64,000 nucleotides of DNA from Bdellovibrio bacteriovorus HD100 (GTDB lineage Bacteria; Bdellovibrionota; Bdellovibrionia; Bdellovibrionales; Bdellovibrionaceae): the NCBI RefSeq assembly GCF_000196175.1, contig NC_005363.1:1178001-1242000 (forward strand), given 5' to 3'. Below the pieces are notes generated by a model, which was not told the origin of the DNA, searched no databases, and worked only from the letters and a program-made list of their open reading frames with translations. A program made the position numbers and the translations under genes. Shown here piece by piece: positions 52,739 to 56,334 of this stretch. Positions within the stretch are counted from its first letter, which is position 1, and each line of letters begins with the position of its first letter.

Positions 52739-53335
52739 ATGGAATTCAAAGATCTGTTTTCTCAAGCCGTCTCAAAAAACTTCCGCCGCGGGGACGTGGT
52801 GTATCGTGCGGGTGAAACACCCCAGAATATTTATTTTGTCGAATCAGGCCTGGTGGGCCTGGGGTTGTGGGGAGAATCCGGCAAGGATCATCTGGTGCGC
52901 TTGTTTCGCGAGGGCCAGATCTTTGGGCACCGCAGTCTGTTTGCCAATGAACCGTATCATGCCACCGCCACCGTGATTGATGACAGTGTCCTTCGGGTCA
53001 TGAATAAAAACGAAATGCGCCAGCAGATGAAAGGCAACTGTGACCTCGCGGAAAAGCTTTTGGAGACTTTGGCGATTGAACTGCGCCGGGCTGAAGCCAA
53101 ACAATTGATCTTGAGTGAAAAAGACGCCCCGGCGCGTATTGCCGAAGCGGTGGTGTATTTAAAAGAACTTCACCCGGAATACTCCTGGACCCGGCAAGAG
53201 ATCGCCGATTTCTGCGGGACCACCACACCCACCGTGATCCGCACTCTGGCCCGCTTCGTGGAAGACGGGCTGATAGAGCAGCGCGGGCGGGAAATCATCA
53301 TCCTGGATAAAAAGAACCTACTGGCGCAGGGGTAA
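52739..53335 (+). CDS. Crp/Fnr family transcriptional regulator
   Basis: A 198-residue regulator with a cyclic-nucleotide-binding-type beta-roll (about 10-105: FRRGDVVYRAGETPQNIYFVESG, then GQIFGHRSLFANEPYHATATV), a dimer helix, and a C-terminal winged helix (SWTRQEIADFCGTTTPTVIRTLARFVEDGLIEQ). No N-terminal Cys cluster as in Fnr is present, so it is probably not an iron-sulfur sensor. Its ligand is unknown. It lies next to sulfur genes whose promoters carry a shared palindrome, and a matching half-site lies upstream of its own start, so it is the natural candidate regulator. It converges with the MBL gene (18 bp overlap). Confidence 0.9.
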   Translation: MEFKDLFSQAVSKNFRRGDVVYRAGETPQNIYFVESGLVGLGLWGESGKDHLVRLFREGQIFGHRSLFANEPYHATATVIDDSVLRVMNKNEMRQQMKGNCDLAEKLLETLAIELRRAEAKQLILSEKDAPARIAEAVVYLKELHPEYSWTRQEIADFCGTTTPTVIRTLARFVEDGLIEQRGREIIILDKKNLLAQG

Positions 53336-54178
53336 TTTTAAATACCGTGTGCCATTTTCCTCCGCCGCCGGCAGCTGGCCCGCGCGGATATTCACCTGAA
53401 TGCTTGGTAGAAGCAGTTTGGGGGCCGCCAGCGTGGCATCACGCTCTTGGCGAAACTTCACAAAGTCTTCCTTGCTGGTGTGACCCTTCAGTTGGATGTT
53501 CTGGTTCTTTTCCTCATTGACGGTGGTTTGATACATCAAAGCGCGGCCGTTGGGTTGATAGTCATGACCCACAAAAATCCGGGTGTTTTCCGGAAGGGAA
53601 TAAATTTTTCCAGTGACCGAGTCGTAAAGATTTTCAGCACTTCCCGCCGGGAAGTCGCAGCGGCCCGTGCCGGAATCAGGCATAAACAGCGCATCCCCGG
53701 TAAAGATCGCATCCTCAATCAGATAAGACGCGCACGCAGGCGTGTGGCCCGGAGTGAACAAGGTTTTGATTTTCAGCGATCCCGCCTGCAGGACTTCGCC
53801 TTCTTTTAGCAGGATGTCAAAGTCAGAGCCCGAGGTGTTCAGGTCATTCATATTGAAGACCTTCTTGAACACCTTTTGCACTTCGGTGATGCGTTCGCCG
53901 ATGGCGACCTTGATGTCCGGGAAGAAGTTTTTAAAAAGCTGAGAGCTGGACAGGTGATCCGCATGGGCATGGGTTTCCATGACATAGTGAGGATGCAGTT
54001 TCATCTCTTTTACAAACGCCACCACGGGGTCCATGGACTTTGTAGAAAGTTTTCCAGACGCTGGATCGTAATCCCAAACCGGGTCAATCACCACGGCATC
54101 CCGTGTGTCCTGGTCATAGACCACATAGGTCAGGGTGGAAGTGACGCTGTCAAAGAAGTGCTGAATTTGCAGTTTCAT
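53318..54178 (-). CDS. Persulfide-dioxygenase-like metallo-beta-lactamase fold enzyme
   Basis: A 286-residue MBL-fold hydrolase: ETHAHADHLSSSQ (HxHxDH), TPGHTPACASYLIEDAIFTGDALF with the third His and bridging Asp, and FVGHDYQP. The tail fits the ETHE1/Blh/SdoA group and differs from glyoxalase II in the residues after GDALF (MPDSGTGRCDFPAGSAENLY is typical of persulfide dioxygenases). ETHE1-type enzymes oxidise glutathione persulfide to sulfite. Pairing with rhodanese and sulfur transporters supports this. SD AGGAGG precedes ATG 54178, and a perfect TATAAT lies upstream. Confidence 0.85.
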   Translation of the reverse strand: MKLQIQHFFDSVTSTLTYVVYDQDTRDAVVIDPVWDYDPASGKLSTKSMDPVVAFVKEMKLHPHYVMETHAHADHLSSSQLFKNFFPDIKVAIGERITEVQKVFKKVFNMNDLNTSGSDFDILLKEGEVLQAGSLKIKTLFTPGHTPACASYLIEDAIFTGDALFMPDSGTGRCDFPAGSAENLYDSVTGKIYSLPENTRIFVGHDYQPNGRALMYQTTVNEEKNQNIQLKGHTSKEDFVKFRQERDATLAAPKLLLPSIQVNIRAGQLPAAEENGTRYLKLPLRQ

Positions 54179-54225
54179 GGAATACCTCCTGCTGAAAGCC
54201 TGTCTCAGGTTTCTGGCTATGGTTC

Positions 54226-54269
54226 ATTATAGAACAAAGGCCTGCCCTGAGTTATGTCCTCGGACATAA
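54226..54269 (-). promoter_or_regulatory. Promoter and operator of the persulfide-dioxygenase-like gene
   Basis: On the minus strand a consensus TATAAT (54226-54231) predicts a start near 54219. The palindrome TTATGTCC-TC-GGACATAA (54252-54269, perfect 8-bp arms) is centred 41.5 bp upstream of that start. This is the classic position for a class II Crp/Fnr activator. Confidence 0.65.
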
Positions 54270-54283
54270 GAAAAGGTTTTTCT

Positions 54284-54328
54284 TTATGTTCCCGGGCATA
54301 ACACCCAGACCGAGGATAGCCTTAGGAT
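54284..54328 (+). promoter_or_regulatory. Promoter and operator of the rhodanese operon
   Basis: The second palindrome TTATGTTC-CC-GGGCATAA (54284-54301) is centred about 42.5 bp upstream of the start predicted by TAGGAT (54323-54328). It is 32 bp, three helical turns, from the first palindrome. SD GAGG precedes ATG 54363. Confidence 0.6.
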
Positions 54329-54362
54329 GAAGTCCTGTGAAGCCAAATAAGCGAGGACTGCT

Positions 54363-54686
54363 ATGCGTGAAATAAGCTGTGAACAACTGAAAGAAAGAAT
54401 GAACGAATTCCGTCTGGTGGATGTGCGCACCCCCGAAGAATACACCGGGGAGCTGGGGCATATTGCGGGCACCGAGCTGCGCCCGCTCGGCCCTGAACTG
54501 CTGGATTTTTTGAAAACCCTGAACCCGTCCGAGAATATTGTCTTTGTTTGTCGGAGTGGGGCAAGATCAGGGCAGACGACACTTCTCAGTGAAGAGATGG
54601 GATTCACCAGCACCTACAACATGGTGGGCGGAATGTTACGCTGGAATGAAATGGGATATGCAGTGACTAAAGGAGCAGGAAAATGA
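54363..54686 (+). CDS. Rhodanese-like sulfurtransferase
   Basis: A 107-residue single-domain rhodanese: LVDVRTPEEYTGELGHIAGT and the active-site loop VCRSGARSGQTT with Cys63. Such enzymes move sulfane sulfur between thiosulfate, persulfides and acceptors. It is the first gene of the operon rhodanese-YeeE-YeeE-TauE/SafE; its stop overlaps the next start. Confidence 0.93.
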   Translation: MREISCEQLKERMNEFRLVDVRTPEEYTGELGHIAGTELRPLGPELLDFLKTLNPSENIVFVCRSGARSGQTTLLSEEMGFTSTYNMVGGMLRWNEMGYAVTKGAGK

Positions 54687-55102
54687 TGAACAGTATTTTG
54701 ATGGCGTTGGCGGGTGGGGCTTTGATTGGTCTTGCGGCCTCGTTGATGTTGATTTTAAACGGTCGGGTCACGGGTATCAGTGGCATCGTGAATGGATTTA
54801 TCGGCGATGTTCGCAAGGATCTGTGGCGAGGTGCCTTTATCCTGGGGCTATTGATCGGCGGACTGGTGTTGGGAGCTTTGCAACCAGATATGTTCGTGAA
54901 CACCTCGGGCCGATCCGTGGGCGTGGTGCTGATTGCCGGTTTGATCGTGGGGTTTGGCACGGTGATGGGCAGTGGTTGCACCAGTGGCCATGGCGTTTGC
55001 GGAATAGCGCGCTTTTCTGTGCGCTCGCTGGTGGCCACCGCGACGTTCATGATTTTGGGAATGCTGACGGCAACACTCTTTAAGGCACTGGTGGGAGGCT
55101 GA
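54683..55102 (+). CDS. YeeE/YedE family transporter, first half-protein
   Basis: A 139-residue protein with four hydrophobic helices and the conserved motif GSGCTSGHGVCG, with cysteines that act in thiosulfate uptake in full-length YeeE. It is half the length of classical YeeE. The second half-protein is encoded 2 bp downstream. The ATG 54683 overlaps the rhodanese stop (ATGATG), with an AGGAG SD. Confidence 0.9.
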   Translation: MMNSILMALAGGALIGLAASLMLILNGRVTGISGIVNGFIGDVRKDLWRGAFILGLLIGGLVLGALQPDMFVNTSGRSVGVVLIAGLIVGFGTVMGSGCTSGHGVCGIARFSVRSLVATATFMILGMLTATLFKALVGG

Positions 55103-55103
55103 T

Positions 55104-55544
55104 ATGAATAAAACATCCATGAAACAAACCGCGGCCGCTTTTGTGGTGGGCTTGATCTTTGCGATTGGGCTGGGAGTTTCCGGCATGACTCAGCCCCAGA
55201 AGGTCATTGGTTTTCTGCAGCTGGGTGAGGGCTGGGATCCGTCACTTATGTTTGTCATGATCGGAGCCATCCCGGTTCATATGCTGAGTTACCGTTGGAT
55301 GAAAGGGCATCGCACACCTTTGTTGGACACTCAGTGGCACGTGCCGGCGTCCAAGGAAGTCACCCGGCCCCTGGTGGTCGGAAGTGCTTTGTTCGGTTTG
55401 GGCTGGGGCTTGGGCGGATTTTGCCCGGGTCCGGCGCTGACGTCTGCTGGAGCCGGTCAGGAGATGGCAATCTATTTTGTGATCGCGATGCTTGCGGGAA
55501 TGGGGCTGTATCGCCTGTACGCCCGCTTTACTGTGAAAGGGTGA
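55104..55544 (+). CDS. YeeE/YedE family transporter, second half-protein (DUF6691-like)
   Basis: A 146-residue protein with four hydrophobic helices and the matching motif GGFCPGPALTSAG with the conserved Cys. It pairs with the protein above, likely forming one sulfur-compound channel from two chains. It starts 2 bp after the first half. No fusion or frameshift is visible: the two genes are separate by design, as in other bacteria with paired YedE genes. Confidence 0.9.
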   Translation: MNKTSMKQTAAAFVVGLIFAIGLGVSGMTQPQKVIGFLQLGEGWDPSLMFVMIGAIPVHMLSYRWMKGHRTPLLDTQWHVPASKEVTRPLVVGSALFGLGWGLGGFCPGPALTSAGAGQEMAIYFVIAMLAGMGLYRLYARFTVKG

Positions 55545-55545
55545 G

Positions 55546-56334
55546 GTGTTTTTTATGGAACTGTTGGGTTATTTAGGTGCCAGTCTGGTCGGAGTGTCGT
55601 TAGGTCTTCTGGGCGGAGGCGGTGCGATTCTGGCGGTTCCGTTGTTTGTATACTTCTTTTCACTGCCACCATCTTTGGCCACGACTTATTCGTTGTTCGT
55701 GGTGGGGGTGTCGAGCCTGATCGGCTTTGCCCGGAATTTTCGTCAGGGACAGGTGGATGTCAAAGCCGGTGTTTATTTTGCGGTGCCTTCTTTTGTCGGT
55801 GTGCTCTTGGTGCGTCGCTGGCTGCTGCCCGCCATTCCAGATCAGTGGGTTTGGGGGCCGGTTTTGTTTAACAAAGAAGTTGTGATTTTAAGTTCCTTTG
55901 CCGTGGTCATGGTGATGGCCGCTTTGGCGATGTTGTTGCCAAGAGCTTCTTCGGCGCAGGGGCCGGTGGCTCCCGCTGCGTTTGCTTTGAAAGCCTTGGG
56001 TGTCGGGGCCGTGACAGGCTTTGTGGGGGCTGGTGGTGGCTTTCTGATTGTGCCTTCGTTGGTGCGCATGTCGGGGCTTCGCATGAAGGTGGCTGTGGGC
56101 ACTTCTTTGGGGGTGATTGCTGCCAATTCAATGTTGGGGTTCTTTGGTGATCTTTGGGCCCGCACACCGATGGACTTCGTTTTGCTTTTGAAGGTTGGTG
56201 CGCTGGCCGTGGCGGGAATTTTTGTTGGTTCCTACTGGTCGCAGCACACTTCTGAGGCGCGTTTAAAGCCGGCCTTCGGGATATTCGTATTGCTTCTGGG
56301 CGGACTTATTATTGTGCAACAGGCGCTTAATTAA
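55546..56334 (+). CDS. TauE/SafE family sulfite exporter
   Basis: A 262-residue membrane protein with about eight helices in two repeats: GASLVGVSLGLLGGGGAILAVPLFVYFF and, in the second half, GAVTGFVGAGGGFLIVPSLV, the signature of TauE/SafE. It would export sulfite or sulfoacetate-type anions. In this operon it fits removal of the sulfite made by the persulfide dioxygenase. It starts at 55546 (ATG), right after the DUF6691 gene. It is the last gene of the operon; no strong terminator is seen before the acs leader. Confidence 0.9.
   Translation: MFFMELLGYLGASLVGVSLGLLGGGGAILAVPLFVYFFSLPPSLATTYSLFVVGVSSLIGFARNFRQGQVDVKAGVYFAVPSFVGVLLVRRWLLPAIPDQWVWGPVLFNKEVVILSSFAVVMVMAALAMLLPRASSAQGPVAPAAFALKALGVGAVTGFVGAGGGFLIVPSLVRMSGLRMKVAVGTSLGVIAANSMLGFFGDLWARTPMDFVLLLKVGALAVAGIFVGSYWSQHTSEARLKPAFGIFVLLLGGLIIVQQALN

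Follow-up and report, generated by a model that had tools for sequence, protein, structure and literature searches.

Sulfane-sulfur control of pdo and sqr genes has been described for SqrR, BigR and YgaV, all of the ArsR family, for CstR and for FisR, and the portions of the literature available to us name ArsR-, CsoR-, MarR- and sigma54-type proteins, among others, as sulfane-sulfur regulators. At the locus studied here in Bdellovibrio bacteriovorus HD100 the targets are similar (PDO, rhodanese, YeeE and TauE), but the candidate regulator is a Crp/Fnr protein and not an ArsR, CsoR or sigma54-dependent one, and we propose activation whereas the ArsR and CsoR cases work by de-repression. The mode of control has its closest counterpart in the class II promoters of Escherichia coli CRP and FNR (activator centre at -41.5), with which the HD100 locus shares the protein family, a two-fold T-N-T-G operator, centres at -41.5 and -42.5 and the lack of a -35 hexamer. 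It differs from them in the operator, which is of the type TKATGTNC-NN-GNACATMA instead of TGTGA (CRP) or TTGAT (FNR), and in the regulator type, which has Pro, Ala, Ser or Thr in place of the E181-type Glu and is devoid of the cAMP-contact residues and the Fe-S cysteines. The HD100 PDO resembles Blh/PDO2-type persulfide dioxygenases over its full length but lacks the sulfurtransferase domain that is fused to it in Blh, the rhodanese having a gene of its own on the far side of the intergenic region. Our literature search, which covered subscription papers sparsely, found no paper linking Crp/Fnr regulators to these genes and none on persulfide or Crp control in Bdellovibrio.

The genes of the locus are given below with coordinates in the window, i.e. 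the whole stretch of 64,000 nucleotides of HD100 DNA that was analysed.

52739..53335, plus strand: Crp/Fnr-family regulator (crp), 198 aa, with cNMP-binding fold and Crp HTH; proposed binder of both operators
53318..54178, minus strand: persulfide-dioxygenase-like (PDO) metallo-beta-lactamase protein (pdo), 286 aa; proposed target of operator 1
54363..54686, plus strand: single-domain rhodanese (sulfurtransferase); opens the operon assigned to operator 2
54683..55102, plus strand: YeeE/YedE-type half transporter (Sulf_transp, TsuA-like)
55104..55544, plus strand: DUF6691 / Sulf_transp second half transporter
55558..56334, plus strand: TauE/SafE family (sulfite exporter family) membrane protein

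The gene order is dnaK - crp - pdo (minus strand) / intergenic region / rhodanese - YeeE - DUF6691 - TauE/SafE - acs. The 3′ ends of crp and pdo overlap by 18 bp, and crp is the second gene along from the intergenic region of 184 bp between pdo and rhodanese. The PDO sequence contains HAHADH, corresponding to the HxHxDH iron ligands of the ETHE1/PDO-type metallo-beta-lactamase fold. It matches PDB entries 4ysk and 4ysl from end to end (E 1e-81), as well as human ETHE1 (4chl), and it matches the dioxygenase half of NCBIfam Blh with 344 of 625 bits, under the Blh cut-off. By sequence criteria the predicted enzyme is a persulfide dioxygenase. A second PDO-YeeE-YeeE set precedes acs in G010 (L112:9451-11173), where neither crp nor palindrome accompanies it, and at five diverged loci (L095, L098, L099, L103 and L105) a second PDO and a rhodanese domain share one open frame of about 490-510 codons, extended at the N terminus.

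Both candidate operators and the predicted promoter elements lie within the intergenic region.

54226..54231, minus strand: -10 box TATAAT of the pdo promoter; predicted start 54219
54252..54269: operator 1 (PDO-proximal), TTATGTCCTCGGACATAA; centre 54260.5, at -41.5 from the predicted pdo start
54284..54301: operator 2 (rhodanese-proximal), TTATGTTCCCGGGCATAA; centre 54292.5, at -42.5 from the predicted rhodanese-operon start
54314..54342, plus strand: strongly conserved promoter core GGATAGCCTTAGGAT-N8-GTGAAG, rhodanese side
54323..54328, plus strand: -10 box TAGGAT of the rhodanese-operon promoter; predicted start 54335

The first-pass annotation had described two 18-bp palindromes 32 bp apart between pdo and rhodanese, and both are present there, their starts being separated by three helical turns. 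Its description as palindromic holds for operator 1 (TTATGTCC-TC-GGACATAA), in which eight of eight pairs are symmetric in the T-A-T-G Crp/Fnr register, and not fully for operator 2 (TTATGTTC-CC-GGGCATAA), which is imperfect with only six of eight. Among 20,000 dinucleotide-shuffled versions of the intergenic region a perfect palindrome of eight pairs arose in 0.4%, and a perfect palindrome together with a look-alike second copy in none. The distances of 41.5 and 42.5 bp between the palindrome centres and the starts, also put forward at first pass, were reproduced from the positions of TATAAT and TAGGAT, the starts themselves being predicted. Neither promoter has a -35-like hexamer at 16-18 nt (best TTGACA matches: pdo 3/6, rhodanese operon 2/6), and for this reason both look activator-dependent. 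As judged from the predicted -10 boxes, the centres of the putative operators stand where those of a class II Crp/Fnr-dependent promoter stand. The published map of HD100 5′ ends is, in the part available to us, one of the attack phase only (PMC3627812).

The genus set comprised 24 species, ten with a close crp ortholog beside pdo, nine with PDO and no adjacent crp, and five others, four of them with a diverged crp (G003, G004, G007 and G012) and one (G014) whose PDO locus is incomplete. A TTATG-N8-CATAA palindrome (at least nine of ten arm letters) was found between pdo and the rhodanese operon in all ten species with crp and in none of the nine without (Fisher p = 1e-5, a value that ignores kinship). 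The crp-less species are spread over several branches of the DnaK tree: G002 beside HD100, G021 beside G010, G005 beside G019, G006 and G013 near G020, and a group of G001, G008, G017 and G018. Judging from this distribution, crp and palindrome were lost from the locus several times, independently. The locus of the sister species G002 reads dnaK-pdo / yeeE-yeeE-acs and is without crp, rhodanese, tauE and both palindromes together.

All ten crp-bearing congeners have TANNNT 20-21 nt past the palindrome on both sides, and a tally of this motif at every offset gave one peak, at 20-21. This spacing is held though intergenic length and spacer sequences differ among the congeners. On the rhodanese side the box at this distance is TAGGAT in 10/10 congeners, with the form TAGGCT in G015; the -10 boxes of some relatives are weak (TACTCT, TAATCT), and the predicted starts keep their position. 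Two palindromes, 32-33 bp apart, occur in HD100, G023, G015 and G020, and the other six of the ten species have one only, at 20-21 nt from both promoters. Because the one palindrome is at class II distance from both promoters, it would be a single operator placed to serve both, and duplication of the operator at three helical turns would provide each promoter with its own.

The core GGATAGCCTTAGGAT-N8-GTGAAG is conserved beyond what a -10 box needs and is partly kept in the crp-less species G001, G002, G008 and G018, with one copy per genome where present. Since it has outlasted crp and the palindromes in these species, something else would also act on the rhodanese-side promoter, and the core may include the site of a second regulator. 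A general promoter class with a GRATAKC-TTAGGAT-GTGAAG core was considered and rejected, as there is one occurrence per genome only. On the minus strand, 54341-54313 is a sigma-70-like match (TTCACA, 17 nt, TATCCT) that would read from the rhodanese promoter toward pdo; 0.4 such matches are expected by chance.

For an independent set, the prediction was fixed before 20 further genomes with Crp proteins 38-50% identical were fetched, and their loci were scored with the matrix from the first set against the best score in shuffled sequence. At 14 of the 20 loci a site scoring at least about as high as the best shuffled score lay between crp and the PDO, YeeE or rhodanese neighbour; loci without a site were more diverged or had no PDO neighbour. 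Ten of the 21 target promoters carried TANNNT at the 20-21 nt distance, compared with 3.8% at other offsets (p = 1.5e-9), where targets were assigned to sites after inspection of the loci and three lower-scoring sites (L186, L196 and L200) were included. The strict motif was missing at this distance from the other 11 target promoters, and toward crp it was found in none of eight. In a further class of the phylum, the loci with the closest Crp proteins (L218-L220) also have the TKATGTNC type.

The regulator scores above cut-off for Pfam PF00027 and PF13545, which places it in the Crp/Fnr transcription factor family, and it reaches 50 of 266 bits against the CRP equivalog. Assignment to the 4Fe-4S FNR subfamily was rejected, since the N-terminal extension and the cysteines are absent from the alignment; this agrees with the initial reading of a Crp/Fnr gene without an Fnr-type Cys cluster two genes away. 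The cAMP-CRP subfamily was likewise rejected, the cAMP-contacting residues E72, R82 and S83 (E. coli numbering) being replaced. A link of the Crp protein to defence systems was looked for and none was found. The HD100 regulator has Pro, residue 164, at the position of CRP Glu181, together with C101 and C159. Among PDO-linked Crp proteins, Pro, Ala, Ser or Thr at the Glu181 position goes with TKATGTNC sites, and the proteins with Glu (L110, L221-L226, L230, L231) lack them; between crp and pdo, most of the latter have an FNR-like palindrome of the TTTGAT type, e.g. ATTTGATCTAGATCAAAG and AATTGATCGTGATCAAAG. The co-variation scan missed the sites in L153, L122 and L121, where the scanned stretch was short or off; these sites are known from the locus comparison. 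Of all the evidence, this co-variation of operator type with a recognition-helix residue speaks most strongly for the palindrome being read by the Crp protein next to it. The FNR-like TTTGAT operators of L221-L226, L230 and L231 stand at divergent Crp-PDO pairs in other classes of the phylum. A search for strict HD100-like palindromes at diverged Crp-PDO loci of another class found none, the TTTGAT type being there instead.

A sulfur-responsive regulon, as suggested at first pass, is not borne out by the genome scan: in the 3,782,950 bases of HD100 no site within two mismatches was found besides the two local ones. Within the window there is no third site with up to three mismatches, and in the genome matches with three mismatches are at control level (13 versus 11 for the reversed pattern). 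Relaxed patterns, applied genome-wide, added only matches that are common to crp-less species or at control level. With no further convincing site genome-wide, the circuit would be confined to one locus. Autoregulation of crp within the genus was rejected because the DNA upstream of crp has no palindrome; among relatives with crp and pdo in divergent orientation, the site is found ahead of crp and lacks class II spacing toward that gene. Another palindrome, TTATGAAC-TG-GTTCATAA, is found at G000:C1:3671867-3671884, in G002 and in three copies in G015, two of which stand 69 bp apart.

Presence and absence within the genus, spacing, held-out loci and the specificity residue all agree with the original proposal of class II Crp/Fnr operators at two divergent promoters. 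We therefore consider it highly probable that the palindromes are operators of the adjacent Crp/Fnr protein and that this protein acts as class II activator of pdo and the rhodanese operon. A Crp/Fnr dimer on each operator would cover the missing -35 region at -41.5 (pdo) or -42.5 (rhodanese operon) and recruit RNA polymerase. Because activation of this kind would take place at both promoters, pdo and the sulfurtransferase, sulfur-transport and sulfite-export genes would be switched on together.

Given the target genes, the signal would most likely be sulfane sulfur (persulfide or polysulfide) or the product sulfite. C159, in the turn that leads into the recognition helix, is present in most PDO-linked members; it is missing from the paralog clade in all six sequences used as reference, and L185 is among the members with good sites and without it. 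C101 is genus-specific, other members carrying C118. No cysteine is invariant in the clade; sensing through a sulfur ligand or through persulfidation of a cysteine would be plausible. That class II activation is right and the signal is something other than sulfur (nitric oxide, oxygen/redox or a nucleotide), or that the protein is active without ligand, is a real possibility, though hardly a probable one. It fits the variable cysteines and the many things that Crp/Fnr proteins sense, the nearest solved relatives of the regulator including DNR and ligand-free types; against it, the regulator accompanies sulfur genes only and has no other genomic site, and the CRP and FNR ligand residues are missing. 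More tentatively, and with some doubt, the Bdellovibrionota proteins may form a Crp/Fnr clade for sulfane-sulfur sensing, perhaps by persulfidation of C159, in which loss of the E181-type Glu accompanied an operator change from TTTGAT to TKATGTNC beside the same PDO genes, and one operator shared by two divergent class II promoters was later duplicated.

Binding with activation, rather than repression, is the most likely action of the Crp/Fnr protein. It seems unlikely that the protein binds the palindromes as a repressor, blocking polymerase until released by a ligand. Steric repression would be possible since the operators overlap the -35 region, and most regulators that the partly accessible literature describes for sulfane-sulfur control of such operons act by repression (SqrR/BigR, sHdrR/SoxR and others); the sites upstream of crp that show no class II spacing, in relatives with crp read away from pdo, point the same way. 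A repressor, however, would tolerate other positions, whereas the distance of 20-21 nt to the -10 box is fixed on both sides in diverged lineages, which is what contact with polymerase would lead one to expect, and the promoters without -35 hexamers have the look of activator-dependent ones.

CsoR/CstR-type operators can also be short inverted repeats with a 2-nt centre, and sulfane-sulfur control is best known from families other than Crp/Fnr. Even so, we regard it as very improbable that an ArsR-, CsoR- or MarR-type protein encoded elsewhere reads the palindromes and crp is a mere neighbour, since palindrome and crp are gained and lost together and the operator type tracks the recognition-helix residue of Crp. 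Chance palindromes or RNA hairpins without regulatory role would be compatible with the shuffling frequency of a single perfect 18-mer and with the two further perfect ones elsewhere in the window, but this explanation is refuted, since more than 30 species conserve the sequence together with its position and linkage.

The arrangement is most likely a local, conserved sulfur-detoxification switch that would be read by the neighbouring regulator. For predatory bacteria, this names a probable regulator and exact candidate operators for persulfide detoxification. The Crp/Fnr family would thereby join the families that probably control persulfide-detoxification genes. The series of no, one shared and two operators, together with regulators of the E and non-E type beside the same enzyme, offers a system for the co-evolution of a regulator and its sites.
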